Assembly (NCBI RefSeq): GCF_021190955.1
Contig: NZ_JAIOAO010000004.1
Coordinates: 62,001 to 126,000 of the forward strand
Direction: 5' to 3'
Length of the DNA stretch: 64,000 nucleotides
DNA from: Parachryseolinea silvisoli
GTDB taxonomy: Bacteria > Bacteroidota > Bacteroidia > Cytophagales > Cyclobacteriaceae
The translations under genes were made by a program, and so were the position numbers. Within the stretch, counting starts at the first letter, position 1, and every line of letters starts with the position of its first letter. This document shows, piece after piece, positions 17,336 through 57,266 of this stretch. The notes under the pieces are model-generated. The model did not search any database. It saw only the letters and a list, made by a program, of their open reading frames with translations, and was not told where the DNA came from.

Positions 17336-17365
17336 AATGTGGGAGAAAGTGGTTGGAAGTGGAGC
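17336..17365 (+). promoter_or_regulatory. Three tandem MraZ-type boxes (AAAGTGG-N3)
   Basis: AATGTGG-gag, AAAGTGG-ttg and GAAGTGG-agc follow each other with an exact 10-bp period. This matches the operator type described for MraZ (tandem TGG-containing boxes at 10-bp spacing upstream of mraZ). They lie 49-78 bp before the mraZ start and overlap the -33 region of the promoter, which fits autorepression. Confidence 0.75.
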
Positions 17366-17382
17366 AAAAATACTTATGTTTG
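17353..17382 (+). promoter_or_regulatory. mraZ/dcw promoter, Bacteroidota type
   Basis: TTG at 17353-17355, exactly 19 nt, then TATGTTTG at 17375-17382: an exact match to the Bacteroidota housekeeping consensus TTG-N19-TAnnTTTG. A start near 17389 would leave a leader of about 25 nt. The TTG falls between MraZ boxes 2 and 3. Confidence 0.7.
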
Positions 17383-17413
17383 CTTAGGAGAAAAAGACAA
17401 CCACTACACGTCT

Positions 17414-17857: not shown

Positions 17858-17859
17858 CT

Positions 17860-18780: not shown

Positions 18781-18804
18781 TATAATAGAGTAGGCAGGAG
18801 CACG

Positions 18805-21283: not shown

Positions 21284-21384
21284 AACATGCCCAATGTGGA
21301 AATGTGTATAGAATTTGTGGATAACTTTTAGGAGTATACTTCAAGAGAGACCATAGAAATAGAAAATTATACCGGGTTATAAAC

Positions 21385-22848: not shown

Positions 22849-22864
22849 CGATACTGATTGAGGA

Positions 22865-24106: not shown

Positions 24107-24146
24107 CATTAAATTGAAAAGAACAGCTTAGTATAAAGAGTAAAAA

Positions 24147-26692: not shown

Positions 26693-26694
26693 GC

Positions 26695-29952: not shown

Positions 29953-29994
29953 TAAAAAAAGAACAACACAACCACTATAAATAGAATTACTACC

Positions 29995-31302: not shown

Positions 31303-31397
31303 ATACAGAGAACTGGCACCAGAGTATTGGCACTTGAGATTCGGAACGATATTTTTGCCGGTCACAAAAAAAGCAACAACCACTAAAAGTAATACAC

Positions 31398-39193: not shown

Positions 39194-40585
39194 TTAATAT
39201 CCCAATACCTTCAGCATACTCTCCGCAGTCTGCTGCGCAGCAAATAGCCGGGTCGTGATCTCACCGTCTTCGTTGCGGTCGATCAGGACGTGCTGCGGCG
39301 CCGGTACAAGGCAGTGTTGAATGCCACCATAACCACCCAGTGATTCCTGGTAAGCGCCCGTGTGGAAGAAGCCGATGTATAAAGGCTCTTCGTCGTTGAT
39401 CATGGGCAAGAACACCTCGCCCGTGTGAGCTTCCGAGTTGTAATAATCCATGCTATCGCACGTCAGGCCACCCATGTTTACCTTGTGGTAAGGGTCGTCC
39501 CACTTGTTGGCAGCCAGTAGCACATACTTCTGGTTGAGGCCCCATGCGTCGGGCAGGTGGGTGATGAACGAACCATCGATCATGTACCACAGCTCTTTGT
39601 CGTTCTGCAGTTTCTGATCGATAACATTGTACAGCACCGCGCCGCTTTCGCCCACGGTGTAGCTACCGAACTCCGTGAAGATGTTCGGCACAGGTACGTT
39701 GTTCTTATCACAAATCCACTTGATGTTTTCCACGATCTGTTCGATCATGTACTTATAGTCAAAGTGGAACGTAAGGGACGTCTTAATCGGGAAACCACCG
39801 CCGATGTCGATCGAGTCGAGCGACGGGCAAATCTTTTTCATTTCGCAATACTTGAAAACAAAGCGGCTCAGTTCGCTCCAATAGTATGCGGTGTCTTTGA
39901 TGCCCGTGTTGATGAAGAAGTGAAGCATCTTGAGCGACGCCTTTTCGCTCTTCTCAATATTCTCACGGTAGAATGGAAGGATGTCGCTGTAGCGAATGCC
40001 GAGACGCGAGGTGTAAAACTCGAACTTAGGTTCTTCGTCGGCTGCGACGCGGATGCCTACCCGGTAGGGGGTCTTGACATTCTTTTCGTATTCTTCGAAT
40101 TCTCCCATCTCGTCCAGGATCGGAATACAGTTGTGGAAACCGTCGTTGAGGAGGTCGGAGATGTATTGCGTGTACAGCGGCATTTTAAAGCCGTTGCACA
40201 AAATGTACGTATCCTTGGTGATCTTGCCTTTGGCGTAGAGAGACCGCACGATGGGAATGTCGAATGCCGACGAGGTCTCCATGTGTACGTCCTCGTTCTT
40301 CACGGCTTCTTCCAGAACGAAAGAAAAGTGCGAAGACTTGGTACAGTAGCAATATGTGTAGTTGCCGTTGTATTTGAATTTCTCCAGAGCAGCCTTAAAA
40401 AGAGCCTGTACAGAGCGAATATTCTCGCTGATGCGGGGCAGGTAGGTTAGCTTGAGGGGAGTGCCGTATTGTTTGATGATGTCCATCACGGGGACATCGT
40501 TAAACAGCAATTCGTGGTCGCGGACCTTAAATTCTTTTTGAGGAAACTCAAAAGTTTGCTCAATCAGTTCGCGGTAGCTCTTCAT
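39194..40585 (-). CDS. Arginine decarboxylase, short fold-III type
   Basis: A 463-aa PLP enzyme of alanine-racemase fold type III. Visible: the CYCTKSSHF region holding the expected PLP Lys, the glycine-rich IDIGGGFPI loop, FTEFGSYTVGESGAVL and the active-site Cys in GGLTCDSMD. It is shorter than E. coli SpeA (about 660 aa) and of the size usual for Bacteroidota enzymes annotated as arginine decarboxylase. It should make agmatine; the divergent agmatinase-like gene supports this. Related decarboxylases of carboxynorspermidine or DAP are the alternative. Confidence 0.82.
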   Translation of the reverse strand: MKSYRELIEQTFEFPQKEFKVRDHELLFNDVPVMDIIKQYGTPLKLTYLPRISENIRSVQALFKAALEKFKYNGNYTYCYCTKSSHFSFVLEEAVKNEDVHMETSSAFDIPIVRSLYAKGKITKDTYILCNGFKMPLYTQYISDLLNDGFHNCIPILDEMGEFEEYEKNVKTPYRVGIRVAADEEPKFEFYTSRLGIRYSDILPFYRENIEKSEKASLKMLHFFINTGIKDTAYYWSELSRFVFKYCEMKKICPSLDSIDIGGGFPIKTSLTFHFDYKYMIEQIVENIKWICDKNNVPVPNIFTEFGSYTVGESGAVLYNVIDQKLQNDKELWYMIDGSFITHLPDAWGLNQKYVLLAANKWDDPYHKVNMGGLTCDSMDYYNSEAHTGEVFLPMINDEEPLYIGFFHTGAYQESLGGYGGIQHCLVPAPQHVLIDRNEDGEITTRLFAAQQTAESMLKVLGY

Positions 40586-40931
40586 TTACTCCGTTGTCTG
40601 TTAGTCTGTTGAACGTCTTGAAAAGTAATGACTTTAGTTTGGTGCGGAGGGCTTCCTGCGCCGGTCTTTTTATTGTCAGTAGTCTACTACAGGCCGATTG
40701 CTGCTGTTGCAACGACCAGATAGTGACGAACGCTCTGGCAAAGGGTGCAATATTGGGATAAATTTGCCATCTTTGCAATAATTCATTTGGAACCCATGGT
40801 TAATCGTTTTTCCGATCTGATTGTTCCGGTCTACACCGGTCAGCCCGACCTCTAAGGGCGGACGGAAGCGCGTTTTTTTAACTTATTCCTGCGGTTAACC
40901 ACTAATTCATAAAACCTTAATAGACATTGTC
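40586..40931. other. 346-bp divergent intergenic region
   Basis: Separates the decarboxylase and agmatinase genes. TAAATTTG at 40759-40766 matches the -7 promoter consensus on the plus strand without a clear -33 partner. A small hairpin CCGGT-ctac-ACCGG lies at 40826-40839. No convincing ORF and no recognised riboswitch. Confidence 0.35.
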
Positions 40932-41894
40932 GTGAAAGAGCTAAAGATCATTGAAGTGAAGTCCGAAATCGGTGCCGGAACCCGCGGCGCGAGCATGGGC
41001 GTGGAAGCCATGAAGATCGCCAGCCTCGACCTGCAGTCGGATTTTTTTAAGCAGCACGAGTCCGTAGAAGTAGAGAACGTCAACGAGCTCCTGTTTGACG
41101 GCGCCCAACATGCACACGCCAAGTTCATCGACGGCGTCATGATTATGGAAGAGCGCGTTTGCCTGGAAGTATACGAAACCATCTTTGATGAGTTTTTTCC
41201 GCTGGTACTGGCCGGCGACCACAGCACCGCCTATGGCACCATTGCCGGCATTAAAAAAGCACATCCCAAAGCACGTCTCGGCGTGATCTGGATCGACGCC
41301 CATGCCGACATCCACACACCGTTCACTACCCCGTCCGGCAACATGCATGGCATGGCGCTGGCCATGGCGTGTGGCATTGACAATTATGAGTGTAAGATCA
41401 ACGACCCGCTCGGCGAGACGCTCGAATACTGGGAGCAACTTAAGAACGTGGGCATGCCCGGCCCGAAGATCTACCCGGAAGACATTGTCTATATCGGTGT
41501 ACGCGAACTGGAAAAGCCCGAGAACTACCTGTTGAACAAATACAACGTCAACTTTATCGAGATCGAAGACGTGCAGCGCGAAGGCGCGGAAGCCATTGCC
41601 CGCAAAGCGTCGGCGATGCTCGACCACTGCGATTATGTTTATGTGTCGTTTGACGTCGACAGTCTCGACAGCCATGTATCGACCGGCACCGGCACACCGT
41701 CGCCCAACGGCCTGACTGTAGCGGAAGCAAAGGCGCTTAACACCGAGCTGGCGCGCGACCCCAAGGTTTGTGCCTGGGAGATCGTGGAAGTAAACCCGAC
41801 ACTGGACACAGAAAACCGCATGGCGGAAAGCGCATTCGAGATTCTGGAGGCCACTGCCAAGGCTATTGCCAGCCGCCCCGTATTGGCGGAATAA
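40932..41894 (+). CDS. Agmatinase/arginase-family ureohydrolase
   Basis: A 320-aa binuclear-manganese enzyme, GTG start. The metal-binding motifs LAGDHSTAYGT, WIDAHADIHT and SFDVDSLDS are complete. Beside arginine decarboxylase, agmatinase activity (agmatine to putrescine and urea) is the best call, but arginase or formiminoglutamase cannot be excluded from motifs alone. Its stop codon directly abuts the stop of the convergent START-like gene, with no spacer. Confidence 0.85.
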   Translation: MKELKIIEVKSEIGAGTRGASMGVEAMKIASLDLQSDFFKQHESVEVENVNELLFDGAQHAHAKFIDGVMIMEERVCLEVYETIFDEFFPLVLAGDHSTAYGTIAGIKKAHPKARLGVIWIDAHADIHTPFTTPSGNMHGMALAMACGIDNYECKINDPLGETLEYWEQLKNVGMPGPKIYPEDIVYIGVRELEKPENYLLNKYNVNFIEIEDVQREGAEAIARKASAMLDHCDYVYVSFDVDSLDSHVSTGTGTPSPNGLTVAEAKALNTELARDPKVCAWEIVEVNPTLDTENRMAESAFEILEATAKAIASRPVLAE

Positions 41895-42542
41895 TCATTT
41901 TTTATTATTGTAGCGTGACGGATCCTCGAGTAATGCAATGTACTCGCGGATCGTCGTCATCATGTTATTGCGGATGATCGGGTCGGTGATAAACTTGGGT
42001 ATGCTTCCCGGTTTGGACAAGATGCGATAGGTGGCCTTTGTGCGTCCGGGCGTCAGCCGCTCCAGGCGCCAGCTGCCGGCCAGCTCCAGGCGGGTAACAC
42101 CTTTACGCACGGGAGCACGTGTAGCGTCGACGTACGATTCGAAGGCAATAAAGAGAATGCCGGGGCCCGGGCTGGAGAGACGATAGATCAGGTAGCTATC
42201 CTGGTCGGCGACGGGCCAGGGAATATCGTGGTACGAATATTCGAACCAGGTAGTAGTGTCGCCGCGTTGTTTGTAGATCTTAAACTCGCTCACATGGCTT
42301 TGCCATTGCTCAACCAACGTTTGGTCCTGAATAATGCGCAGCCCTTCATATACCGTGTTGTTGAAAAAAAACTCCCCCTTTACTTCGCGGGCCTCTACGG
42401 GCGGTGAGACCTTGGAAAATGTAATCCAGCGCTCGTAAATGCTGATATCCCCATCTTTTTTAACCAGTTCAAACCCCTCGTCGTCCTGTGCTTTCGTGGC
42501 GAGGGCCATGAAACTACAAAACACCCAAACGTACATCTTCAT
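41895..42542 (-). CDS. Exported START-like (SRPBCC fold) protein
   Basis: A 215-aa protein with signal peptide (MKMYVWVFCSFMALATKAQ). The mature part resembles START lipid-binding domains: GDISIYERW, the central DTTTWFEYSYHDIPWPVADQDSY, then a Gly/Pro segment and a C-terminal helix (PIIRNNMMTTIREYIALL). START domains hold a hydrophobic ligand in a deep pocket; here the location is periplasm or outer membrane. Divergent from the deoxyhypusine-synthase-like gene (97-bp gap). The ligand is unknown. Confidence 0.8.
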   Translation of the reverse strand: MKMYVWVFCSFMALATKAQDDEGFELVKKDGDISIYERWITFSKVSPPVEAREVKGEFFFNNTVYEGLRIIQDQTLVEQWQSHVSEFKIYKQRGDTTTWFEYSYHDIPWPVADQDSYLIYRLSSPGPGILFIAFESYVDATRAPVRKGVTRLELAGSWRLERLTPGRTKATYRILSKPGSIPKFITDPIIRNNMMTTIREYIALLEDPSRYNNKK

Positions 42543-42639
42543 AAGCTTTTTAATAATTTACCAATCGGGCCGCTGCTTTTCATAACGCGTAAATCCCTGT
42601 TTTTCTTAATTTCGCCCCGTAATTTGAATAACACAAGCC

Positions 42640-43617
42640 ATGAGCCAGAACACACCAATATCGTCGTTTATTGAGAAAAACTTTCTGCATTTTAATGCAG
42701 CTGCGCTGGTAGATGCCGCCAAAGGCTATAAAAAACACCTTGCCGAAGGTAAAAAAATGATGGTAACACTGGCTGGCGCCATGAGTACCGGCGAGCTGGG
42801 CATCAGCTTTGCCGAAATGATCCGCCAGAACAAGGTGCACATCATTTCCTGTACCGGTGCCAACCTCGAAGAGGACATCATGAACCTGGTGGCACATTCA
42901 CACTACAAGCGCATTCCCAACTATCGCGACCTCACGCCCGAGCAGGAGTGGGGCCTTCTGGAAAACCACCTCAACCGCGTAACCGATACGTGTATTCCCG
43001 AAGAGGAAGCCTTCCGCCGTCTGCAGAAGCATCTGTTCAAGGTGTGGAAAGATGCGGAAGACGCGGGCGAGCGTCTGTTTCCGCATGAATTTATGTTCCG
43101 CATGATCAACAGCGGCGACTTGAAGCAATATTATGAAATTGATCCGAAGAATTCCTGGATGATCGCCGCCGCAGAACGCAATATGCCGATGGTTGTGCCG
43201 GGTTGGGAAGATTCCACGATGGGGAACATCTTCGCGTCGTACGTACTAACGGGCGAGCTGAAGGCCAGCACCATGAAGTCGGGTATCGAGTACATGGTAT
43301 GGCTGGCAGACTGGTACACAGAAAACGCCGGCAAAGACGGTATCGGCTTCTTCCAGATCGGTGGTGGTATCGCCGGTGACTTCCCGATCTGTGTGGTGCC
43401 TATGCTGCACCAGGATCTGGAGCGTACCAACGTGCCCTTCTGGAGCTATTTCTGCCAGATCAGCGACTCGACTACCAGCTACGGGTCGTATTCGGGCGCA
43501 GTACCCAACGAGAAAATCACGTGGGGTAAGCTGAGCATTGAAACACCTAAGTTTATTGTTGAATCAGACGCGACCATTGTCGCACCCCTGATGTTTGCCT
43601 ACATACTCGAGTGGTAG
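42640..43617 (+). CDS. Deoxyhypusine-synthase-family protein
   Basis: A 325-aa protein of the family that in eukaryotes transfers aminobutyl from spermidine to eIF5A. The N-terminal NAAALVDAAKGYKK, the NAD-contact MVTLAGAMSTGELG and SCTGANLEEDI, and the catalytic lysine region KITWGKL (Lys297) are kept. Bacteria lack eIF5A; homologues are thought to act as homospermidine-synthase-like polyamine enzymes. Neighbouring decarboxylase and agmatinase genes, which would supply putrescine, support a polyamine role. It precedes argS by 16 bp. Confidence 0.88.
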   Translation: MSQNTPISSFIEKNFLHFNAAALVDAAKGYKKHLAEGKKMMVTLAGAMSTGELGISFAEMIRQNKVHIISCTGANLEEDIMNLVAHSHYKRIPNYRDLTPEQEWGLLENHLNRVTDTCIPEEEAFRRLQKHLFKVWKDAEDAGERLFPHEFMFRMINSGDLKQYYEIDPKNSWMIAAAERNMPMVVPGWEDSTMGNIFASYVLTGELKASTMKSGIEYMVWLADWYTENAGKDGIGFFQIGGGIAGDFPICVVPMLHQDLERTNVPFWSYFCQISDSTTSYGSYSGAVPNEKITWGKLSIETPKFIVESDATIVAPLMFAYILEW

Positions 43618-43633
43618 GGCGGGTATCTTTATT

Positions 43634-45421
43634 ATGAACGTAGATCAGTCACTTCGCACAGCGGTCAAACAAGCGGCAGAAGCCCTGTTTGGTCAGCCGC
43701 TGTCAGCTATACAACTGCAACCCACAAACGCCGAGTTTGAAGGGTCGCACACGGTCGTGTGTTTCCCCCTCACCAAACTGTCGCGCAAAGGCCCCGAAGA
43801 AACGGCACGCCTGGTAGGCGACTACCTGGTGCAACATGCTGGCATCGTAAGCCGCTACAATGTGGTAAAAGGTTTTTTGAACCTGGTCCTGAGCGACCAG
43901 GTGTGGGTAGACGTACTGCGCGCAATTGTCGCCAACCCGAATTATGGCCAACTGCCGGACAACGGCCAGGAGATCATGATCGAGTATTCGTCGCCCAACA
44001 CCAACAAACCCTTGCACCTGGGTCACCTGCGCAACAACTTCCTGGGATGGAGCGTAAGCGAGATTTACAAAAACAACGGCTATACCGTACGCAAGGTACA
44101 GATCATCAACGACCGCGGCATACACATCTGTAAGTCGATGGCCGCCTGGAAACTGTACGGCGATGGCGAAACGCCACAGAGCACGAATATGAAGGGCGAT
44201 CACCTCGTAGGCAAATATTATGTCGAGTTCGACAAGGCCTACAAGGCGCAGATGGCAGCCCTGATCACCAAAGGCGCCAGCGAAGAGGAGGCCTCGAAGC
44301 AGGCCCCCATCATGCAGCTGGCATCTGACATGCTGCGCAAGTGGGAGCAGAAAGACCCCGACACGGTTTCTCTCTGGCAAACCATGAACGGCTGGGTGTA
44401 CGAAGGCTTTAGCGCCACCTATGCCCGCATGGGTGTAGACTTTGATAAACTGTATTACGAATCCGACACCTACCTGCTGGGCCGCGACGAAGTGTTGAAA
44501 GGCGTGGAGAAAGGTATATTCTTTAAGAAAGACGACGGCTCTGTCTGGGTAGACCTGACGGCCGACGGCCTGGACCAAAAAGTATTGCTGCGTTCCGACG
44601 GCACCTCCGTATACATGACGCAGGATATCGGTACCGCCATCCTGCGCTTCCGCGATTTCCCGAAGATCATGGGTCAGGTATATACCGTGGGGAATGAACA
44701 GGAGTACCATTTCAAGGTTTTGTTCCTGATCCTGGGCAAACTGGGCTACGAATGGGCCAAACAATGCTTCCACCTGTCCTACGGCATGGTCGACCTGCCC
44801 ACCGGTAAGATGAAGTCGCGCGAAGGCACCGTAGTGGATGCCGACGAGCTTATGCAGGAAATGTACGAAGACGCCGAAAAGCAGTCGCGTGAGCTGGGCA
44901 AGCTGGACGAGATGAGCCACGACGAAGCGAAACGTCTCTTTGAAATGGTCGGCCTGGGCGCGTTGAAATTCTTCCTGTTGAAAGTAGATCCCAAGAAGCG
45001 GATGATGTTTGATCCGCAGGAGTCCATCCAGCTGCAAGGTTTTACCGGCCCGTTTGTACAGTATACTCACGCACGTATCCGCTCCATTATTCGCAAGGCC
45101 GAGGGCATGGGCTTACAGGTATCGGCCGGCGACCTGAACGGTGTGACTGCCCTCGAGCCCGCTGAACGCGAAGCGCTGCAGGTGCTGAGTGTATTTGAAA
45201 ACAAAGTACAGGAAGCTGCCCGCGAATACGCTCCTTCCATCATTGCCAACTACGCCTACGACCTGGCGAAGGAGTACAACAAATTCTATCAGAACATACC
45301 GATCTTTAACGAGACCGACACAAACAAGCTGAAGTTTCGCATAGCCTTGTCACAGTCCATCGCCAAATCCATCAAACGCGCGATGCATATGCTGGGCATT
45401 GAAGTGCCCGAGCGCATGTAG
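43634..45421 (+). CDS. argS: Arginyl-tRNA synthetase
   Basis: A 595-aa class I synthetase. The start at 43634 (MNVDQSLRTAV) is chosen over 13 extra upstream codons that overlap the previous gene. N-terminal Arg-tRNA-synthetase additional domain; HIGH motif as HLGHLRNN in PLHLGHLRNNF; KMSKS region as GKMKSREGTV; C-terminal DALR anticodon-binding domain (about 475-595). It charges tRNA-Arg. Its place after polyamine genes, all using arginine, may be chance or shared regulation. A terminator follows. Confidence 0.97.
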   Translation: MNVDQSLRTAVKQAAEALFGQPLSAIQLQPTNAEFEGSHTVVCFPLTKLSRKGPEETARLVGDYLVQHAGIVSRYNVVKGFLNLVLSDQVWVDVLRAIVANPNYGQLPDNGQEIMIEYSSPNTNKPLHLGHLRNNFLGWSVSEIYKNNGYTVRKVQIINDRGIHICKSMAAWKLYGDGETPQSTNMKGDHLVGKYYVEFDKAYKAQMAALITKGASEEEASKQAPIMQLASDMLRKWEQKDPDTVSLWQTMNGWVYEGFSATYARMGVDFDKLYYESDTYLLGRDEVLKGVEKGIFFKKDDGSVWVDLTADGLDQKVLLRSDGTSVYMTQDIGTAILRFRDFPKIMGQVYTVGNEQEYHFKVLFLILGKLGYEWAKQCFHLSYGMVDLPTGKMKSREGTVVDADELMQEMYEDAEKQSRELGKLDEMSHDEAKRLFEMVGLGALKFFLLKVDPKKRMMFDPQESIQLQGFTGPFVQYTHARIRSIIRKAEGMGLQVSAGDLNGVTALEPAEREALQVLSVFENKVQEAAREYAPSIIANYAYDLAKEYNKFYQNIPIFNETDTNKLKFRIALSQSIAKSIKRAMHMLGIEVPERM

Positions 45422-45444
45422 ACTGACATCATTTGATACTATTG

Positions 45445-45475
45445 AAAAGGCCGCCTGCTCTGGGTGGCCTTTTTG
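45445..45475 (+). terminator. Terminator after argS
   Basis: AAAAGGCCGCC / GGTGGCCTTTT (one G-T pair) with an 8-nt loop, followed by TTTGTTTAT. Confidence 0.8.
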
Positions 45476-45507
45476 TTTATACAAGGATTTGATCTTAACG
45501 GGTTTGC

Positions 45508-45573
45508 TGGCGCAAGTTTAAGTCCCGAAGGGACGGAACTTGTGACGGCGACTGCTACCAGTCTTAGACTGGC
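45508..45573. repeat. Dispersed REP/MITE-like repeat, copy 2
   Basis: Begins CTGGCGCAAGTTTAAG and ends CAGTCTTAGACTGGCG, the reverse-complement layout of the repeat at 9080-9170; a GTCCCGAAGGGAC palindrome is inside. The shorter internal part shows that the ends are conserved while the middle varies. Confidence 0.7.
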
Positions 45574-46058
45574 GTGGAGCCGTACCGCAAACACCGCAAG
45601 GGCTCATTTACCCAAAAAAACACGTTTGTGTCATGATTTACAGTCTCTTAGGGGGATATTTTGCCATCCAAACCAACCGTTACTATACTATAATTATATG
45701 TCAAATTTCCTCATAATGTATATTCTAAACAACTTCCAAGTACTATACTATATTTTTATTTAACGCAACCTTTTCAAAATCTCAACTAAACTGTAACGGC
45801 TACGTTTATTCTCCCACGAACAACGCATTAACAAGCACTCAACAACGAACATGACCAGTAACCCCCCCGCTACTTTCTAATTCTCTGCAGAAAGGCATTC
45901 TTAGACGGCTGGTTTATTTCCCCTGACGTACCGAACAACAAACGAGGTTTAAAAACTTAAACCAAGTCCTTCTATTGCCTTCACGGAGCATCGCCGAAGA
46001 AAGTACACTGCTGTGTCTACTCGGCTTCCCTGATTTCTTCACATAAACCAAAACAACA
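45574..46058. other. Long AT-rich intergenic leader
   Basis: About 485 bp between the repeat and the small ORF, without a convincing gene. The part 45640-45790 is clearly richer in A and T than the surroundings and holds two copies of TACTATACTATA (45681-45692 and 45741-45752) exactly 60 bp apart. It is probably the regulatory region or long 5' leader of the module at 46059-49001. No clear -7/-33 pair was found. Confidence 0.45.
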
Positions 46059-46217
46059 ATGGCTGGGATTTTCAAAAAAGGCCATGGGCCTCCTCGTGGA
46101 ATTCGCGGAGGACATGGCAACGCATTGGCTATCCGAAAAGATAGCCGGACAACGGCGTGCGAGGCCATGCTTCGAAAGATCAACGACCACATAACCCAAA
46201 TACAAACAATGGTATAA
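46059..46217 (+). CDS. Small ORF, possibly carrying two compensating frameshifts
   Basis: An open frame of 52 codons, ATG in an A-rich context (CAAAACAACAATGG), ending 3 bp before the next gene. As read, the product has an odd Gly/Arg-rich middle. If one A of the AAAAAA run at 46074-46079 is skipped, the +1 frame gives MAGIFKK-AMGLLVEFAEDMATHW, a clear amphipathic helix. Restoring one base near 46162 returns to the original frame with AMLRKINDHITQIQTMV and the same stop. A small helical membrane-associating protein with two indels (mutation or base-calling error) explains this best. Low certainty. Confidence 0.4.
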   Translation: MAGIFKKGHGPPRGIRGGHGNALAIRKDSRTTACEAMLRKINDHITQIQTMV

Positions 46218-46220
46218 ACT

Positions 46221-47183
46221 ATGGAAACACAATTCTTTCCTGCAGACTCGCAACAGCTTAAGTCGTACTGGAAGCGTCCCGGTGGCAAGTTCGGTACCCT
46301 GGTAGGCATCGGCTTACTGGTAGCGGCCGGCTACTATGTATTGCCAGTATTGACCAAGGTCGTATGGAACACGGTAAACTTTGGTATTGCCCTGGCATCG
46401 CTGGGTGCATTCCTCTACATGGTCACGCATCGAAAGTTCAGGCTGGGCCTCTTTTACCTCTATGAGATTCTGATGAAGAAGTTCGCGGGCATCGTGATCG
46501 AGCTGGACCCCTTCATCATTGCCGAGGACTATATCCGCGACATGACCGACGAGCGCGAGAAGCTATACAAGCAATCGCTCGAAGTCGATGGTCAGAAGGA
46601 GAAGATCGATCTCAAGATTAAGGAAAAGGAAAGCGAGATCAATAAGTTCATGACCAAGGCACAAGTGGCGCGCGAGCGAAACATGTTGCCGGAGCTTGGC
46701 AACATGACGCGGCAGATCGGCCGACTGAAAGAGTATATCCAACAGCTGACGCCGATCCGGGATAACCTGTCGCGCATTGGTGAGTACCTCACCCGCATTC
46801 ACCAGAACAGTGCCTACCTCATTGAAGACGCGCGCAATGAGCTGGAGCTGAAGCGCGACCTGTATAAATCCGTCACGTCGGGTAACCGTGCACTGAACTC
46901 CGCCCTCAAGATCTTCAAAGGTGACCCCGAGAAGAAGCTGCTGGTAGAACAGTCTATGGAATACCTCAAAGATGACATCGCGGGTAAGCTCGCCAACATG
47001 AAAAAGGCCATTACCTATTCGGCCGACTTTATGAAATCGATCGACCTCGACAATGCCACGTATGAAAAAGAAGGCCTTAAAATGCTCGAGTCTTTCAACG
47101 GAGAGGACGCTTTTAAGCTTACCACGGGCAATACAACAAAAGAATCGGGTGAAGGCACTGAATTCCAGAACCTCTTAAAATAA
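46221..47183 (+). CDS. Membrane-anchored coiled-coil protein, unknown function
   Basis: A 320-aa protein I do not recognise. Residues about 27-75 form two adjacent hydrophobic helices (GTLVGIGLLVAAGYYVLPVL and TVNFGIALASLGAFLYMV), followed by a basic THRKFRLG. Residues about 105-280 are charged and helical, with coiled-coil heptads (EKIDLKIKEKESEINKFM, LGNMTRQIGRLKEYIQQL), recalling PspA or TelA-like proteins in style only. The Ser/Thr-rich tail ends in TEFQNLLK. The coiled coil is probably cytoplasmic. It is followed after 51 bp by the OmpA-domain protein. Confidence 0.8.
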   Translation: METQFFPADSQQLKSYWKRPGGKFGTLVGIGLLVAAGYYVLPVLTKVVWNTVNFGIALASLGAFLYMVTHRKFRLGLFYLYEILMKKFAGIVIELDPFIIAEDYIRDMTDEREKLYKQSLEVDGQKEKIDLKIKEKESEINKFMTKAQVARERNMLPELGNMTRQIGRLKEYIQQLTPIRDNLSRIGEYLTRIHQNSAYLIEDARNELELKRDLYKSVTSGNRALNSALKIFKGDPEKKLLVEQSMEYLKDDIAGKLANMKKAITYSADFMKSIDLDNATYEKEGLKMLESFNGEDAFKLTTGNTTKESGEGTEFQNLLK

Positions 47184-47234
47184 ACAGTATAATAAACAAC
47201 GTAACCAACGAACAACAACAAACCTACATTTACC

Positions 47235-49001
47235 ATGGCAACTAAATTAAAATCATCGGGCAAGATCATATTGATTGTTCTTACCCTGGGGCTCATCCTC
47301 TTTGGCAAGCTTTACTGGTATGACAAACGTCCGCAGGAAGCAAAGGCTTCACACGACATCGGTCGCGTGGCCTTGCCCGACGCACCGGAAGCCTCGCTTG
47401 CGGGTAACGCGATAGCGTTGCCATTACCTTCCCAGGAGGAATCGGTAAACGGTGGTACACGCATCGTGTGGAAGATCATGGCGTGGAACGCGCAGTTCCC
47501 CTTGCTCTATGCCAACGGTGGTGCGAACACCACCAAAGGGTCGCTGGCCGATAAGTCCAGGTTGCAGATCCAGATCGTGCGACAGGACGACTGTTTTAAG
47601 TCGATTACCGACATCGTCAAGTTCGCGCAGGATTATAAAAACAACCCCGACGCGCCCGGCGTGTTTGCGTCCTTTATGGGCGACGGTATGCCGGCCTTCT
47701 TCGCAGCGCTCTCCAAAGAGCTGGAGCCCCTGGGCCCCGAGTATCAGCCGATAGCATTCTATGCCATGGGTAAATCGTACGGCGAAGACCAGTTGATGGG
47801 TCCCGTGGAATGGAAAAAAGATCCTGCGTCGGCTGTGGGTAAAACAGTAGCCTGTGTGTTGCGCGACGGCGACATGAACATTCTGCTGAAGTGGGCGGGT
47901 GACAACAACCTGAAAGTGAACCCCGACGAAACGACGTATGACAAGAACGCAATCAACCTGATTGCAGCCAACGACTTCCTTGATGCGGCCAACAAATACA
48001 TCACCGGCTACAAGGAAACCCGCAAGCTCATTCAGGATGGTAAAAAAGTAAGCGAAGAGATCACAGTAGGTGTGGACGCTGTATCGACCTGGACACCGGC
48101 CGACGTGAACGTCGCCCAGCAAAAAGGTGGCCTGGTATCCATCGCCACCACCAGGCAGTACTCGTCGCAGATGCCAAACATTACGATCACGATCAAGAAG
48201 TTCGCCTACGACCACCGTACCGACATCGAAAACCTGATCATGATGCTGGGCCAGGCGGGCGACCAGGTGCGCTCTTTTACAGAAGCCAAGGTGTTTGCCG
48301 CGAAGGTCTCCGCGAAGGTATATGATGAGCAGACGGCCGACTACTGGTTGAAATACTACAACGGTATTACCGAGAAAGACCGTCAGGGTAACATGGTGTC
48401 ACTGGGTGGTTCCATGGCCTTCAATCTGCAAGACGCTGCGAACATGTTCGGCCTGGGTAAAGACGGCATCGACCGCTATAAAATTGTATACACCACGTTC
48501 GGTGACATACTTTCCAGGATGTACCCGGAATACATGGCCACGTACCCGGCGTACGCTACTGTAGTGGACAAATCATTCCTACAGTCGGTGTTGGTCAACC
48601 ATCCCGAGCTCCTGGAAGGTCAGGCGTTAAAGCAGACCTACTCGGCGGAGATCACGACGGAGGTATCGTCGCGTACGTACGAAATCCAGTTTGAGACCGG
48701 AAGCGCCGTGATCAAATCTGCTTCGTACCAGGTGCTGGACGAGATTCTGAGCAGCTCGGTGGTGGCCGAAGGCCTGAAAGTAGGCATCTACGGTCACACC
48801 GATAACACCGGTAGCATTGCCGTCAACCAGGAGCTGTCAGAAGCTCGCGCGGCGGCGGTAAAACGCTACCTCGTGAGCAAAGGCCTGACCGAGCAGCGTA
48901 TCGAGTCGAAAGGCTTTGGCCCCGCCAAACCGATTGCTGATAACGCTACGGCTGCCGGCCGCGCCAAGAACCGTCGTGTGCAAATTGTATTGGGTGAATA
49001 A
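47235..49001 (+). CDS. Inner-membrane-anchored solute-binding-like protein with OmpA domain
   Basis: A 588-aa protein. N-terminal signal anchor (about 9-28, IILIVLTLGLILFGKLYWYD); then a periplasmic part of about 400 residues with the look of a type 2 periplasmic binding protein (SITDIVKFAQDY, VGKTVACVLRDGDMNILLKW, VDAVSTWTPADVNVAQQKGG). The C-terminus (about 480-588) is an OmpA-like peptidoglycan-binding domain: IQFETGSAVIKSASYQVL, IYGHTDNTGSIAVNQELSE, RIESKGFGPAKPIADN, GRAKNRRVQI. It therefore ties the inner membrane to the wall. Operon with the coiled-coil gene upstream. Confidence 0.85.
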   Translation: MATKLKSSGKIILIVLTLGLILFGKLYWYDKRPQEAKASHDIGRVALPDAPEASLAGNAIALPLPSQEESVNGGTRIVWKIMAWNAQFPLLYANGGANTTKGSLADKSRLQIQIVRQDDCFKSITDIVKFAQDYKNNPDAPGVFASFMGDGMPAFFAALSKELEPLGPEYQPIAFYAMGKSYGEDQLMGPVEWKKDPASAVGKTVACVLRDGDMNILLKWAGDNNLKVNPDETTYDKNAINLIAANDFLDAANKYITGYKETRKLIQDGKKVSEEITVGVDAVSTWTPADVNVAQQKGGLVSIATTRQYSSQMPNITITIKKFAYDHRTDIENLIMMLGQAGDQVRSFTEAKVFAAKVSAKVYDEQTADYWLKYYNGITEKDRQGNMVSLGGSMAFNLQDAANMFGLGKDGIDRYKIVYTTFGDILSRMYPEYMATYPAYATVVDKSFLQSVLVNHPELLEGQALKQTYSAEITTEVSSRTYEIQFETGSAVIKSASYQVLDEILSSSVVAEGLKVGIYGHTDNTGSIAVNQELSEARAAAVKRYLVSKGLTEQRIESKGFGPAKPIADNATAAGRAKNRRVQIVLGE

Positions 49002-49037
49002 GGAAACCGGATCAAACACAAGAATGAATGAAACAGA

Positions 49038-49063
49038 AAGGCCGTCCCCTTGGGGACGGCCTT
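49038..49063. terminator. Bidirectional terminator
   Basis: AAGGCCGTCCCC / GGGGACGGCCTT with a 2-nt loop, followed by ATTTG. It lies between convergent genes ending at 49001 and 49114. Confidence 0.85.
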
Positions 49064-49113
49064 ATTTGTCTGCCGAAGCCTTTGCGAAGGCAGATCCAGG
49101 TTCAGGTTTATGA

Positions 49114-51030
49114 TTATTCTTTAATGATTTTCTCTTTGCGTATCGTCAGATCGTGATGTTCGACAACGACGATGTGTATGCCGGGCTTCAGTTGCTGCAC
49201 AGAGATCGCGCTACCGGGATTCTCCACAGCCATTATTTTTTGGCCGTCCACGGCATAAATACTCACGCGTTTTACAGTTTCAGCATGGTGTATCGACAGC
49301 AGGTCGCGCACAGGGTTGGGCGATAGCACGACTGCATTCTCCTCACGCAATGTTACCGTAGCGGCTGTCTTGTTTTCGGCCTGGCTTCGCGCGCTGACGG
49401 CAGCGGTACTGGCGACAGTAATATAGTTCAGGTTGAAGCCACCCGTGGTGGTGGCAATGCCGACGGAGTATGTACCGGCAGGCAATGTTACGTCGTGTGA
49501 CACATTCGCCCAGTTCTGCCAGCCCCCGGTGTTAGGAACTGTCACCGTGCCCAGTTGGGTGGCGCCGGCATCTTTTTCGAGCTTAAGCGTGGTATTGCTG
49601 TTAGGCGATGCCACCCGGTATGTAATGCGGTATGTACCGGCCTGGGGTATCGTAATGTTATAGGCCAGCCAATCGCCTGCGTCGATCCAGCCGACGTTCA
49701 GACCGCCGCCAGCGTCGGTGGTGGCTTCCGTTTGAACGCCCGCCATGTAGGCCCACGATTCTGCCTGAATCACCGTGCTGAACCCGCCGCCCGTTGTGCC
49801 GGCGAAACCACCGATGGTAACGGTAGCACGTATAGGCGAAGAAGCATTGATCGTCGATGACCGGTCGAAAGCATCATCATAGCAGAAGCCGTACGAGAAT
49901 CCTTCGTGGCTGATATCAGTACCGTGCCAGAATTTAGAATACCAGTTGTAGGGCGACGTGCCGTAATATCCGGAAGCAGGAGAGAAGTCCTGCGTGGCAC
50001 CGGTGGCAAGATTGAGATTGATAGCATGGCGGTTGATGGCGGCACAGATTTGTGTCTGTACGGCCTTGTCCAATCCACTGCCCGCGGCCAGTGAGCCGCT
50101 GCCTTCCAACGCTTCGATGGTGGTAGGCTTGCGCGTAATGGTCGCGATCGCCCCGTCGGAACTGCGGGTGAATGTAAAGGTCTGTCCGGATACGCGGCCG
50201 CGCCACGTGCCGACGTCGCCGCCGTTAAACACCAGGTCGCCGGAAGTATACTTCGACCAGATCGCATCGATATACCCGCCGAGGTAATTACCCTGCGCAC
50301 CGCCGGGCGCAAAGGCCGGGGTTTTGGAAGGGCAATGAATAATGCCTTTGGTGGCATCCAGACAGCTGGCAAAGGCCGCGGGAGCGGTGGATTGCCACTG
50401 CGCCAGAATGTCGGCATGCGTTTTCAGCTCGCCCACTTTTTTGTAAAAGCCATTGTTGCCCCACACCTCCAGGCCCATGGGATATTGATAGGCATCGACA
50501 CGCGTCGTGTTGGCCCATAATCCATTGGTGGCATTGGCCAGCTCGATAATCTCATAGCGAACACCCTGGTTGGGATCATTGGGGTTGGCCAGGTTCGGTG
50601 CAGCGTAACCGCCCGTGGCGCCGAAGAAATATAGATATAACTGAGAGTTGAACGCGATCAGGATCCGGCATCCAACAATGCCGGGTACTTGAATGGTTTT
50701 GTTCGGGATCTCACTGAGGCGTGCAAAGCAATTAGCATACTTGCCATTGCCTCCCGGCCCCTGGTCGCCATTGTTTACGGGCCCCTGCACAGTATTGTCT
50801 GCCGTGCTCATCGTCCGCACCGCGCCGGTACGCGTGTCGATCCATACGTGATTGTCGTTGATGATACCCACCACGGCCACATACACATTGGCATCGGCGT
50901 AAGCCGAGCGGTTGTTCAGCGTGAAAGGTATCGCGGCCTGACTCCAGGCCTGTTGTGCATACAGTATAAAGGTGATAGCAATGATCGCGGGCAGACGGAA
51001 ATTCCATCGGCGGTGTAGTAAAGTGTTCAT
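49114..51030 (-). CDS. Secreted GH64 beta-1,3-glucanase with CBM6 and T9SS tail
   Basis: A 638-aa secreted protein; the start at 51030 gives a normal signal peptide ending in AWSQ. Residues about 25-400 match GH64 (thaumatin-like glucanases): FTLNNRSAYADANVYVAVVG near the start and YQYPMGLEVWG, NWYSKFWHGTDISHEGFSYG further on. A CBM6 module follows (about 430-550: IQAESWAYMAGVQTE, VGWIDAGDWLAYNITIP). The last 70 residues (LSPNPVRDLLSIHH, VSIYAVDGQKI, LKPGIHIVVV) are a type IX secretion sorting domain. Predicted role: digestion of fungal or algal beta-1,3-glucan outside the cell. Confidence 0.88.
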   Translation of the reverse strand: MNTLLHRRWNFRLPAIIAITFILYAQQAWSQAAIPFTLNNRSAYADANVYVAVVGIINDNHVWIDTRTGAVRTMSTADNTVQGPVNNGDQGPGGNGKYANCFARLSEIPNKTIQVPGIVGCRILIAFNSQLYLYFFGATGGYAAPNLANPNDPNQGVRYEIIELANATNGLWANTTRVDAYQYPMGLEVWGNNGFYKKVGELKTHADILAQWQSTAPAAFASCLDATKGIIHCPSKTPAFAPGGAQGNYLGGYIDAIWSKYTSGDLVFNGGDVGTWRGRVSGQTFTFTRSSDGAIATITRKPTTIEALEGSGSLAAGSGLDKAVQTQICAAINRHAINLNLATGATQDFSPASGYYGTSPYNWYSKFWHGTDISHEGFSYGFCYDDAFDRSSTINASSPIRATVTIGGFAGTTGGGFSTVIQAESWAYMAGVQTEATTDAGGGLNVGWIDAGDWLAYNITIPQAGTYRITYRVASPNSNTTLKLEKDAGATQLGTVTVPNTGGWQNWANVSHDVTLPAGTYSVGIATTTGGFNLNYITVASTAAVSARSQAENKTAATVTLREENAVVLSPNPVRDLLSIHHAETVKRVSIYAVDGQKIMAVENPGSAISVQQLKPGIHIVVVEHHDLTIRKEKIIKE

Positions 51031-51128
51031 AAACGTTGTGGTTTTCGGGTGCAACACAAAGCTACGGGAATAGCCACAGGAACACCGGTCGACTGATTGA
51101 ACGGTACCGCTCAGTTATTAAAAGGCAG

Positions 51129-53036: not shown

Positions 53037-56000
53037 TTATTCTAATCCGATCATGATAAACGCACCCCAGTAGATAGGCTCGGGGTACTCCATGCGCAAC
53101 TCCTTCTTGGCACCAATAAAGCTTTCGCGCAGGTTGCCTGTGTTGAGCCACTTCTGGTAGAACTTCAGCATCAGCTTCTGCGTGGCCTCGTCGTCTACCT
53201 TAAACATACTCATGATCAAAACTTTTGCGCCGGCCACCAGGAACGCGCGCTGCAGACCGTATACCCCTTCGCCGGCTTCCATATCGCCGAGGCCCGTCTC
53301 ACAGGCGCTGAGTACTACCAGGTCGGTCTTATCGAGGTTAAGGCTCATCGCTTCATAGGCCGTCAGGATACCGTTCTCCATGTTGAAATTATACTGGGTC
53401 TTGTCCATCAGGTCGCCGGCACCGCGCAACAGCAGGCCTGTACGCATCAGCGGGTTCTGGGTCAACATGGCCTCGTTGCCTTCAATCTCCTGCTCCAGGT
53501 TCACCTGCATCGACGGGCGGTAGAAACCGTGGGTGGCAATGTGGAAGATCTTGGGGTTTTTAAGCTCCTTGATTTTTTCTTCCGACGCCATCTTCTCCAT
53601 GTACTCCGCCGTGAGCCAACCTTTTTGCTTCAGCATAAACTGCACCTGCGTTACCTCTTTTTCCGTACCGGGCAGTGCCGAAATACGCTGGTCAGCCGAT
53701 GCCGTGACATAGAACGACGGATTGCCAAACATCGTAGCCGTGTTCTCCGTGGCGGAGGGGCGCGTCTTGATGTTGCGCAGGTATAAATCCTTGGTGTTGC
53801 TGACCAATACAATGTTGGCATTGTCGATCACATATTTACCATCGGGTGTCGGAATGGCCTCCAGGTTGATCTGGTTATAGACACCGTCGGCCGACAGGTA
53901 TACCGTAGCGGCCTGGCCGATCTCTTTTGCAATAGGTTCCCAGAAGACGCCGTACGAGTAGGTGTCGGGCACTTTGCCGACAATGGCATTACGGTAGAAT
54001 TTGAAGAAACGCGTCTCCATCTTCTTGCCGTCTTTGAGCATCACCGCCTTTGGCTTCACGATATCCTTCTTGATATACAGTGCGGCGTAGATGATGGAGT
54101 CTGTAAAGGAGTGATTGAAGTGACGGTAGCGTACCATCTCGATCGCCACATCGTTCGGCTTTAGAATTTTCTTGATATCTTCAAACGTGATGCGCTTGTC
54201 GTCGAAGCTTTGGCCAAACAGCTCAGAGCTTTGGCTCAAGTCTTTCTCCAGGCGTTCTACCTCCTGTTGAAGCCCCGCGGGGTCGATCTGGTTCTCGGTC
54301 AGCTGAGCAGGGCTCATCGAGAGGGCCAGCGTGAGCAGTTCCTTTTTCTGCACCCACGTCGTATAGCGGGTCTTGAGCTCTTCATCTGTACTGTTCAGGA
54401 TGCGCTCACGTACCTTAATAGACGAGCTTAGCAGCAGCGCTTTGGTGAGCAACTGGTAGTTGTAGATCTTGCCGGCCAGGTCTTTAAAGTCGTCAAGATT
54501 GCTAAAGGCAAGCGTGTTGTAAAACTCGAAGTCGCCTTTAATGGTGTTCCAGTATTTAGCTTTCTCGCGCTCGCTCAGGGCCGGGAAGAATTCTTTGATG
54601 AACTTCTCGTAGTTGTTCAGCGACTCCTCGATCATATTCTTCGAGCGCTTGTAGTCCTGCTGCATGTAATACACCTTGCTGAGCTTCGAAAGCACTTTAA
54701 CATACTCCGGGTGTGTGCGGCTGAAGAATTTTTCGTACAGGGCTTTCGCCTGGTTGTAAAACTCTTCCGACTTCTTGTAATTTTTCTGCTGGTAATAAAC
54801 GTCTCCTGTCAGGGTATAAATGCCGGCAGCGTTAATGTTGTTTTTTGTGCCGGTCTTCGTACGCCAGATGGTCTCGGCTACCGTCAACGAATTGAAGGCA
54901 ATGTCGAATTTCTTTTGAGAGATATACAACACGGCCATGTTCTTCAGGATCTCGGCGTATTGCGGGTTGTCTTTGCCCAGGCGGGTCTCAATGATCGTAC
55001 GGGCCTCCAGCATCAGTTTTTCTACTTCCTTGCCATTGTCGCCCTCGTAGAATTTAATCAGCGCCAGCTGCGCCAGTGAGCGGGCCACTTCAATGTGGTT
55101 GCGGCCGAACTGTTTCTCCTGGCTACCCAGGGCCTTGGTAATGTTCTCTTCGGCTTTTTCGTAGTCACCGAGCGTATAGTATATATCGCTCAGTAGTTTT
55201 TGCGTGGGTGCCGTTTTGGTGGAGGTCATACCGTACGTCTTGACCGCGATCTGGTTGGCGCGAGTCGCCGTGCGCTCGGCCTCGGTATAGTCGCCTTTGG
55301 CCAGTAACAGGCGGCCTCTGTTCACCAGCGGGTCGATAAGACGGCGGGAAGTATTGCCGTACAGTTTTTCCGACTCGGGTATCTGGTCGGCCACCAGGCG
55401 GTCAGCTTCAGAGAAGCGGCCCAGCTGGATAAAGAGGGACGTTAGCTCTTCTTCCGCCGACAGCTCGCTGTTGATGTCGGTCTTGGAGCGTGTGACCAGC
55501 TTGTGCGAGCGCTCCAGGTTGCTCTCGGCTTCGTCAAACATACCTTTGATGCCGTACAGCTTAGCCTGCGTTTCCAACGCATTGATATACGTGGGGCGCC
55601 ACTCTTTGTAGTCGCGGTTGTCTTTTATGTCGATGACCTCGAGTGACTTCGTCAACCCTTTTTCCGCTTCTTCATATTCGCCCAGTTTTAGTTGCAGGTA
55701 GGCAATCTTATTGAGCTCGGCAGCGTACAAAATATCTTTATAATCGTATTTAACACGGGCAGCTTCCAGCGCCGCCTTCAGCGTTTTAGAGGCGCGGGCG
55801 TACGAATCAACCGCTTCGTAGTACGTAGCGAGGTGATTGAGAATATCCAGCAAGTCTTTGTGGCGGTCGCCGATCTGGGGGGCGACGATTTTGTTATAGC
55901 TCTCTTCGTAGATTTTGCCGGCTTCTTCAAACTTGTTGGTATAATCCAGGTAAAAGTTTGCGGCAAAGATGCGTGACAGGTGATACTCCGGCGAAGTTTC

Positions 56001-57266
56001 GCCGTACAGCTCCTTCTCGATCTCCAGGCGTTGATTCAGATAGCTTTCTGCATTGGTATAGCGTTTCTCCGCAATGGCGGCATTATAAAGGAAGTTCAGG
56101 ATCTTCAGCGCCGTCGGGTGATTGCGCGGCAAGGTCTTGGTATTGAGTACGCCCAGCGCGTCACCCTCCACGTTCTTGGTTTTATCGCGCCCGAGCTTGG
56201 TATCGAACTCTACCGCCTGCAAGTTGATACGCACCACGCTGCCTTTCGAGAAATACTTGCTCAGCACTTTCTCAAATTCTGCTTTTGTATTTACGTAGCG
56301 GTTTTTTTCTTCGTCCACCAGCAGCTTATGCAGGTAAGCGATATAGATATCCTGTGCGAGGGTGTTGGTGGGGTTTACTTTTTTCTTAAGATCGTCCAGG
56401 GTGCGGTTGAGCTCTATTTCCTTCGGCAGCGTGAGGTTGCCGTTTTCAATCAGGCTAATAGCCCATTGATAGTTGTTACGCTCCGCAGAAAGATCGGTTT
56501 CGCCGAGGTAATTTCTTTTGCTTCTGAGCCACGTACGGGCGGCGGTGAAAGCAGAGTCCGCGCTAATGAGGCTACCTTTTTGGCTATAGGCCATGGCAAC
56601 CTGAGTTAGAAGACGTGCATAGTCGCCATACCGTTGCGTCAGTTCGGCTTCCGGCACGCGCTGTGTTTTGATCACACCACCTTCCACTTTGGTTTCTTTC
56701 TCTACTGCGCGGCTGGCAAAGAAGCTTTCCTGCTCGTGCATAATTCCCAGGGCGTCGTTACAAAACCCCTGACCGATCAGGGCTTCGCTTTCCACGAGGG
56801 CAATGCGAGCCTTCAACAGGTCGGTCATCTGTCCCGTGCGGGTCAGTTGTTCCTTCGCTTTGGTAATATATTCACGGCTGATGCGGTAGTTGCCGTAAGC
56901 ATTATAGATCTCGGCGACGTCAATCTGCGTGGTAGCATAACTGGCGCTGTTTTCACCAAACACGGCCAGGCTGGCGGCTTGCGCGTTTTCCAGCGCTTTG
57001 TCAAAGCCGCCCAACATCCCCAACGCCAGGCCAATGCGGGCTTCGCGTAAGTAAATCCCCGGCATGTAGGCATTCTGCGGGCCCATGTTGGCCGTAATCG
57101 TCTTTTTGAGCTTGGCCAGCGAGCTTTCCGCTTTCTCGAAGCTACCTCCGGCATAGGACGCATCGATCTTGGCGAGCGACTTGTCATACTTTTTATTTTG
57201 TGAGCGTGCAGGTTGAGCACACGCCAGGAACAGTGCAACCAACAGGAGGATCCCGTTTTTCATCAT
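53037..57266 (-). CDS. Exported TPR-CHAT protein (caspase-like protease domain)
   Basis: A 1409-aa protein with an N-terminal signal sequence (about 1-22, ARSQ). Residues about 30-950 are mostly tetratricopeptide-type helical repeats (e.g. GDYEKAEENITKALG, KNYKKSEEFYNQAKALYEK). The C-terminal CHAT domain (about 1080-1409) keeps the catalytic dyad: His1246 in HIATHGFY and Cys1322 in VVLSACETGLGD. CHAT domains belong to the caspase/separase clan; TPR arrays usually carry the partner-sensing part. Unlike the cytoplasmic CRISPR-associated TPR-CHAT protease, this one is predicted to be exported. Substrate unknown. Confidence 0.9.
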   Translation of the reverse strand: MMKNGILLLVALFLACAQPARSQNKKYDKSLAKIDASYAGGSFEKAESSLAKLKKTITANMGPQNAYMPGIYLREARIGLALGMLGGFDKALENAQAASLAVFGENSASYATTQIDVAEIYNAYGNYRISREYITKAKEQLTRTGQMTDLLKARIALVESEALIGQGFCNDALGIMHEQESFFASRAVEKETKVEGGVIKTQRVPEAELTQRYGDYARLLTQVAMAYSQKGSLISADSAFTAARTWLRSKRNYLGETDLSAERNNYQWAISLIENGNLTLPKEIELNRTLDDLKKKVNPTNTLAQDIYIAYLHKLLVDEEKNRYVNTKAEFEKVLSKYFSKGSVVRINLQAVEFDTKLGRDKTKNVEGDALGVLNTKTLPRNHPTALKILNFLYNAAIAEKRYTNAESYLNQRLEIEKELYGETSPEYHLSRIFAANFYLDYTNKFEEAGKIYEESYNKIVAPQIGDRHKDLLDILNHLATYYEAVDSYARASKTLKAALEAARVKYDYKDILYAAELNKIAYLQLKLGEYEEAEKGLTKSLEVIDIKDNRDYKEWRPTYINALETQAKLYGIKGMFDEAESNLERSHKLVTRSKTDINSELSAEEELTSLFIQLGRFSEADRLVADQIPESEKLYGNTSRRLIDPLVNRGRLLLAKGDYTEAERTATRANQIAVKTYGMTSTKTAPTQKLLSDIYYTLGDYEKAEENITKALGSQEKQFGRNHIEVARSLAQLALIKFYEGDNGKEVEKLMLEARTIIETRLGKDNPQYAEILKNMAVLYISQKKFDIAFNSLTVAETIWRTKTGTKNNINAAGIYTLTGDVYYQQKNYKKSEEFYNQAKALYEKFFSRTHPEYVKVLSKLSKVYYMQQDYKRSKNMIEESLNNYEKFIKEFFPALSEREKAKYWNTIKGDFEFYNTLAFSNLDDFKDLAGKIYNYQLLTKALLLSSSIKVRERILNSTDEELKTRYTTWVQKKELLTLALSMSPAQLTENQIDPAGLQQEVERLEKDLSQSSELFGQSFDDKRITFEDIKKILKPNDVAIEMVRYRHFNHSFTDSIIYAALYIKKDIVKPKAVMLKDGKKMETRFFKFYRNAIVGKVPDTYSYGVFWEPIAKEIGQAATVYLSADGVYNQINLEAIPTPDGKYVIDNANIVLVSNTKDLYLRNIKTRPSATENTATMFGNPSFYVTASADQRISALPGTEKEVTQVQFMLKQKGWLTAEYMEKMASEEKIKELKNPKIFHIATHGFYRPSMQVNLEQEIEGNEAMLTQNPLMRTGLLLRGAGDLMDKTQYNFNMENGILTAYEAMSLNLDKTDLVVLSACETGLGDMEAGEGVYGLQRAFLVAGAKVLIMSMFKVDDEATQKLMLKFYQKWLNTGNLRESFIGAKKELRMEYPEPIYWGAFIMIGLE

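Follow-up and report, generated by a model that had tools for sequence, protein, structure and literature searches.

The 64,000-nucleotide stretch of Parachryseolinea silvisoli DNA analysed here (the window), which sits on contig C8 of a 7.9-Mb assembly (genome G000), probably carries, in incomplete form, the second copy of an envelope operon that in Bacteroidota comprises five genes and would work by the mechanism proposed below. Clustering of open reading frames (ORFs) at a second locus of the same genome, on contig C5, and in relatives from the phylum gave the full gene order: a helical gene (gene 1, g1), a coiled-coil gene (gene 2, CC), a substrate-binding protein fused to an OmpA domain (gene 3, SBP-OmpA), an ATP-binding cassette (ABC) permease (gene 4) and an ABC ATPase (gene 5). 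By computation, the gene 2 product is PspA/Vipp1-like and held in the inner membrane by N-terminal helices, and gene 3 encodes an anchored NitT/TauT-type receptor fused to OmpA; the complete operon adds a soluble helical g1, a TauC/SaoP-like permease and an NtrCD/TauB-like ATPase. An earlier note on this DNA had proposed an envelope module of Psp-like character, and both points are borne out. Three of its errors are corrected here: a remnant was taken for a gene, an importer receptor for a sensor, and the PspA signal was overlooked.

The C5 copy shares 77% identity with the window in CC and 82% in the receptor part of gene 3. In the ORF list of the window, the ORF starting at 46059, which had been described as a small helix protein, is only 52 residues long, whereas the equivalent place on C5 is occupied by an intact 216-residue helical g1 with the same first seven residues. 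A DNA alignment of the two shows that the start and end are kept in the window, with about 490 bp lost between them and the reading frame upset close to the start. The “small helix protein” is therefore a broken remnant of the first gene of the operon. The permease and ATPase genes, present in the C5 copy and in relatives, were absent beside the window copy in the locus search.

To define the operon, one genome per species was scanned, which gave 237 relatives of the SBP domain, and the best 80 were kept for locus counts. Judged by title nearly all are Bacteroidota, the exceptions being two metagenome-assembled genomes (MAGs), one from Chlorobiota (L058) and one from Williamsia (L100); Chitinophaga pinensis is represented by L072. 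All five genes are found in 65 of the 80 loci; 13 loci are cut by contig ends, and two (L100 and L120) have neither g1 nor CC in more than 9.7 kb upstream. At L070 the final 0.56 kb of the contig still starts a permease. Counted gene by gene around SBP-OmpA, g1 is present in 74 loci, CC in 78, the permease in 75 and the ATPase in 71, with median intergenic gaps, in gene order, of 12, 45, 71 and -1 bases. The earlier note had suggested checking whether the two large genes co-occur, and CC indeed lies directly 5' of SBP-OmpA in 78 of the 80 relatives. Besides the operon members, no neighbouring gene recurs in more than 12 of these loci. The permease matches BPD_transp_1 (E 3e-9), with SaoP and TauC as its best NCBIfam models, and the ATPase matches ABC_tran (E 2e-25), with ntrCD as its best.

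In a 395-genome sample of the phylum, searched at E<=0.001, eight genomes gave the SBP domain and 13 gave CC. All eight SBP genomes carry an adjacent CC gene when diverged members are counted, and eight of the 13 CC genomes are without the SBP domain; therefore CC, often with g1, forms the wider core. Three genomes (L033-L035, family f7) have a gene for a CbbX/SpoVK-like AAA ATPase after the operon; its best match, at L034, has an E of 3.8e-81 while staying under the cut-off of that model, and the proteins of L033 and L035 cluster with it. A hidden Markov model (HMM) built from these three proteins found no AAA+ gene in the window, the C5 stretch or the 80 loci, other AAA+ types not being searched. 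As a separate observation, family f3 (L039:5330-6397 and L040:8348-9433) has g1 and CC followed by a transmembrane (TM) protein in place of SBP-OmpA; by eye this protein is actin/exopolyphosphatase-like, with a weak NCBIfam match (E 0.0072).

An operon of this kind has been noticed before. The passages of PMC11237479 (mSystems 2024) that deal with it describe an operon association of PspA and TM-bearing Snf7 homologues with an AAA+ ATPase, together with an ABC ATPase, a permease and a PBPB-OmpA protein. They present it as an observation of comparative genomics and report no experiment on the operon. The operon described here likewise brings together a TM-bearing PspA/Snf7-like protein, SBP-OmpA and an ABC permease and ATPase, and the window pair shares with 78 of the 80 loci the adjacency of a TM-bearing PspA/Snf7 homologue and a PBP-OmpA protein. 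In contrast to the type in those passages, no AAA+ gene was detected at the 80 loci or the C5 copy, although the three f7 loci do have one; the window copy differs further by being without permease, ATPase and intact g1. Judged against that account, the window locus is a reduced variant of an operon kind already reported as a genomic association, which goes part of the way towards the membership of an already characterised system that the earlier note named as counting against its proposal. The differences are that no AAA+ gene was detected at the 80 loci, the distribution in phages, which does not figure in the account of the operon in those passages, and the importer-free two-gene derivative.

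Gene 2 is very probably a relative of PspA and Vipp1 tethered through N-terminal membrane spans. Its predicted model (mean predicted local distance difference test score, pLDDT, 69; block means 84-94 over residues 101-200) contains helices 22-69 and 71-95, a hairpin formed by 97-152 and 156-231, and then helices 236-273 and 282-291. Hydropathy peaks at residues 26-44 and 47-65 and more weakly at 83-101; since the last peak lies within an amphipathic stretch, the likeliest reading, based on hydropathy and charge, is that of two membrane spans (~26-65) with both ends inside. This agrees with the two-helix membrane protein with a coiled coil that had been proposed. Helix 71-95, which follows the probable spans, is moderately amphipathic (moment 0.19-0.32) and occupies the place of PspA alpha-0. 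According to VIA-align, the model superposes on Vipp1 over 133 of 133 residues at 2.2 Å (6zvs) and over 138 residues at 2.0 Å (8qhx), and residues 96-229/233 correspond to Vipp1 24-157/161 at a constant offset of 72 with a root-mean-square deviation (rmsd) of 2.0-3.0 Å (8qhx, 6zvs, 7o3w). The Vipp1 rows 7o3x and 6zvr align from residue 71/72 of the model, at rmsd values of 5.8 and 5.6.

The sequences point in the same direction. The window protein itself scores E 0.12 and 12.4 bits against Pfam PF04012 (PspA_IM30), below the cut-off of 33.9, and alone it matched no family at E<=0.01 in the family scan. Among 75 CC relatives scanned at that threshold, 23 match PspA_IM30 (best 4.1e-8), the next commonest family being matched by five, and in the Pfam search of genomes the CC gene of G072 reaches 33.1 bits, just short of the cut-off. 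An 18-member CC profile finds Vipp1/IM30 in the PDB at E 0.008-0.03 in one collinear register. To separate kinship from a generic coiled coil, a 114-row CC profile was scored against 12 PspA proteins with the Asp-Pro motif as anchor and at shifts of -20 to +60. The Asp-Pro register scored -8.6, against a mean of -79.8 (standard deviation 14.3) for the shifted ones, the best of which, at a heptad shift, reached -47.7. With hhalign, CC against PspA gives 34%, or 58% with more rows, and reversed controls give 0.3-0.6%.

Several results temper this evidence. A designed coiled coil (E 0.0042) outranks Vipp1/IM30 for the 18-member profile, and a larger, more lopsided profile finds CdvB (E 0.028) instead of Vipp1, again below the same designed coiled coil. 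BAR domains attain higher Z values on the CC model (up to 13.2) at 2-12% identity, and VIA-align warns that such values may be generic for long helices. In addition, hhalign also gives 62% over 52 columns for CC against g1, and a narrow PspA HMM parts CC (14.3 bits at best) weakly from g1 (10.3) and its reverse (10.2). The hhalign and narrow-HMM tests alone are therefore not decisive. CC shares with PspA/IM30/Vipp1 the Asp-Pro start, the alpha-1 to alpha-3 hairpin followed by alpha-4/5 and the register, and its helix 71-95, a possible counterpart of alpha-0, stands in the alpha-0 position; it differs in the additional membrane spans before that position and, for the window protein, in falling under Pfam detection. 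The Pfam signal in relatives, the fold in matching register and the register control all run counter to the earlier statement that no known family motif of such systems was seen. The G000 genome has no canonical PspA_IM30 match, whereas a sample of 198 genomes from the phylum includes 77 with a match above the cut-off.

SBP-OmpA was modelled at a pLDDT of 88: a single helix (7-30) stands at the N-terminus before a substrate-binding domain of alpha/beta type, and OmpA follows at the C-terminus (Pfam OmpA, E 3.7e-22, residues 486-580), in line with the inner-membrane-anchored, solute-binding-like and OmpA-ended protein described before. The OmpA fold is present with Asp523 and Arg538 conserved in the alignment, corresponding to the Asp and Arg with which such domains bind peptidoglycan. 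Fold comparison assigns the receptor domain to the TauA/SsuA/NrtA fold of NitT/TauT-type ABC-importer receptors. Thus the binding part is solute-binding as proposed, and its interpretation as a sensor gives way to that of an importer receptor, which in relatives is followed by permease and ATPase genes. In receptor fold, permease type and ATPase type the operon resembles the NitT/TauT importers TauABC, SsuABC, NrtABCD and CmpABCD; unlike them, its receptor is TM-anchored and OmpA-fused, and in the window the importer genes are missing. Over 110 sequences, 51 of 398 receptor columns and 21 of 113 OmpA columns are conserved at >=98%, the OmpA part being conserved at least as much as the receptor.

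How did the window copy come to lie where it does? Of the seven genomes of the genus, four have the SBP domain, and G000 alone has two copies. In G398, the nearest congener by these loci, argS lies 0.16 kb from the counterpart of the gene at 49114 with no module between, and the receptor of G398's own operon copy is identical to that of Dawidia soli (L045). In the other congeners argS is present, and neither module gene nor a 49114-type downstream gene was found in the stretches compared, one of which ends just past argS. The copy in the window represents an insertion beside argS that the argS site of the nearest congener lacks. In passing, the argS of G398 (L154/L155, G398:C35:71489-73498) matches in two parts, about 243 bases apart within a single open frame.

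In a first tree, the window SBP sits on a branch of 0.27 as the sister of the other nine rows of its clade, which represent six different sequences, with support of 91/88 for the nine and 100/98 for all ten; a second tree leaves the order of the window SBP and the clade unsettled, and in both trees it groups with bacterial sequences. From this long-branched sister position it follows that the window copy arose either by an old duplication or by acquisition from a close relative; it is not a recent copy of C5. Between window and C5, the non-synonymous (dN) and synonymous (dS) distances are 0.161 and 1.50 for CC and 0.140 and 1.57 for SBP, that is dN/dS ~0.1 for each, with dS values of ~1.5 close to saturation and dS not computable for 6 of the 14 comparisons in the set. 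These ratios show constraint, without dating when it acted.

Could the pair simply be a decaying duplicate without function? We regard this as a real, if minority, possibility. The first gene is broken, the ABC genes are absent, a second copy occurs in just one of seven congeneric genomes, and the branch of 0.27 is long. Against decay, both large genes are intact ORFs with dN/dS ~0.1, which also confirms that they are real, and the window receptor keeps 96 of 98 near-invariant columns.

The most interesting part of this work is the operon in phages; the window copy itself is of modest to moderate interest. A scan of viral contigs gave 21 relatives, to which a phage collection adds LR756500.1 (462 kb), for a total of 22 loci (L163-L184). 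In 18 of these all five genes stand in the same order and on the same strand, even with other genes interspersed, and the remaining four (L167, L172, L174, L176) stop at contig ends. The 18 include the 462-kb phage record, which has capsid and terminase genes; at L183 the operon ATPase is split over two ORFs. The T4-type capsid protein Gp23 was found in five records (L164, L166, L176, L183, L184), four of which hold all five genes, and the PF03237 terminase in three (L166, L183, L184). Among 14 control genomes, Gp23 occurs in none and PF03237 in six. At L171 (9661-11055) a phage ATP-dependent DNA ligase (phrog_114, E 2e-105) lies between SBP-OmpA and the permease, and L170, L173 and L174 have an ORF resembling it at the same place; at L164, g1 is preceded at a distance of 0.7 kb by an endolysin gene (phrog_181, E 1.8e-69). 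At L166 (1397-15555) the operon genes keep their order although they are scattered across 14 kb, interrupted by a transposase-like ORF (phrog_506) and numerous small ORFs. The sequences show the complete five-gene operon to be carried in large phage contigs and records, of which we found no mention in the literature searched.

These records would fit a phage-borne envelope module that moves between Bacteroidota and large phages and during infection either reinforces the envelope or shuts out rival phages, an explanation we hold tentatively. In its favour, besides the conserved order and the phage genes, a tree of 47 sequences requires at least four host/virus changes on well-supported branches, with long-branch warnings attached. 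On the other side, 17 of the 22 records, a 416-kb one included, have no Gp23 and 19 have no PF03237 terminase, L165 places within Hymenobacteraceae and may be bacterial, L178 and L179 are identical in receptor sequence and so count one sequence twice, and the window copy falls among bacterial sequences. We advance as a speculative possibility that large T4-like Bacteroidota phages carry the complete, host-exchanged operon, in which an ESCRT-III/PspA-type remodeller is tied to a peptidoglycan-anchored receptor and its importer, and use it in infection to maintain or change the envelope of the host, the window pair being a transporter-free derivative in which a wall-anchored sensor connects to a membrane-tethered PspA-like polymer; here we infer the host identity, the role in infection and the sensor role. 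If phages truly express the operon, it would constitute a viral ESCRT-III-like envelope system.

For the operon as a whole, we propose that gene 3 is fixed between the inner membrane and peptidoglycan and passes a small solute, probably anionic or sulfonate-like, to the ABC permease. The PspA-like CC would polymerise on the cytoplasmic face together with g1, and the receptor would keep it at wall contact sites, whereby import activity or wall-membrane tension could be coupled to membrane remodelling or repair. The window locus would have arrived beside argS; with the importer gone and g1 broken, the tethered CC and the wall-anchored receptor remain. This pair may work with the importer of the intact C5 operon, may tether wall to membrane or act as a sensor there without any transport, or may be heading for decay.

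A plain taurine/nitrate-type importer with a wall-anchored receptor, in which the PspA-like CC is a stress-protection passenger, seems doubtful to us. The receptor, permease and ATPase types agree with it, as does the strong conservation of the receptor, which the OmpA part at least equals. However, the gene order is kept with CC in 78 and with g1 in 74 of the 80 bacterial loci, and also in the virus-collection loci despite intervening genes. The family gains an anatomy open to experiment, bearing on how PspA relatives outside Proteobacteria are held in place and what they are coupled to, for which the operon offers a wall-anchored partner encoded in one transcription unit with CC. The conserved operon, above all in large phages, merits specialist attention.

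A defence module resembling Zorya ZorA/ZorB or the MotA/MotB stators, as the earlier note had considered, is highly improbable and was rejected: SBP-OmpA does join a TM helix to an OmpA domain and ZorB models do match it (best E 3.2e-12), but these matches stay within residues 471-584, at or beside the OmpA domain, no ZorA model matched CC or SBP-OmpA at E<=1 in the defence-model scan, no MotA/ZorA partner is present, the hydrophobic span (residues 11-29) has no acidic residue, a large SBP domain separates TM helix and OmpA, and the partners are those of an ABC importer, not ZorC/ZorD. A defence role in general finds no backing either, since the scan of both proteins, which did not extend to the flanks, gave nothing else better than LmuB (E 0.013), the neighbours look like housekeeping genes by eye, and flanking genes do not recur widely among the 80 loci.

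Table 1. Features of the window locus, with positions in the window and the basis of each assignment.
Feature	Position	Strand	Basis or remark
Remnant of g1	46059..46217	+	52-aa ORF; only first 7 and last ~20 residues match C5 g1
CC, membrane-anchored PspA/Vipp1-like (ESCRT-III superfamily) protein, 320 aa	46221..47183	+	Intact ORF
CC N-terminal helices (residues 22-95): probable two spans (~26-65), helix 71-95	46284..46505	+	Model, hydropathy, hydrophobic moment
CC PspA-like part (residues 96-273), begins at Asp-Pro motif	46506..47039	+	Vipp1 alignment, register control
SBP-OmpA, 588 aa: TM helix, NitT/TauT-type SBP and OmpA domain	47235..49001	+	Intact ORF, Pfam, model
Substrate-binding domain (residues ~72-475), TauA/SsuA/CmpA/NrtA fold	47448..48659	+	
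OmpA-like peptidoglycan-binding domain (residues 476-588), Asp523 and Arg538 conserved	48660..48998	+	
Insertion with respect to congener G398, lying between argS and the gene at 49114-51057	45422..49113	.	Locus comparison (L159)
Terminator-like hairpin, then T-rich stretch, directly 3' of the module	49040..49067	.	Read from sequence, unscored

The surroundings of the module were read by eye. Beside argS, positions 39194-45421 hold arginine decarboxylase-, agmatinase/arginase- and deoxyhypusine-synthase-like genes, a polyamine-type cluster. Further away lie the dcw cell-wall and division cluster (17339-33002; mraZ, rsmH, ftsI and the mur genes to ftsZ) and, on the other side, a gene at 53037-57266 for a secreted protein of 1409 residues that contains numerous TPR-like repeats and ends in a CHAT-like part.

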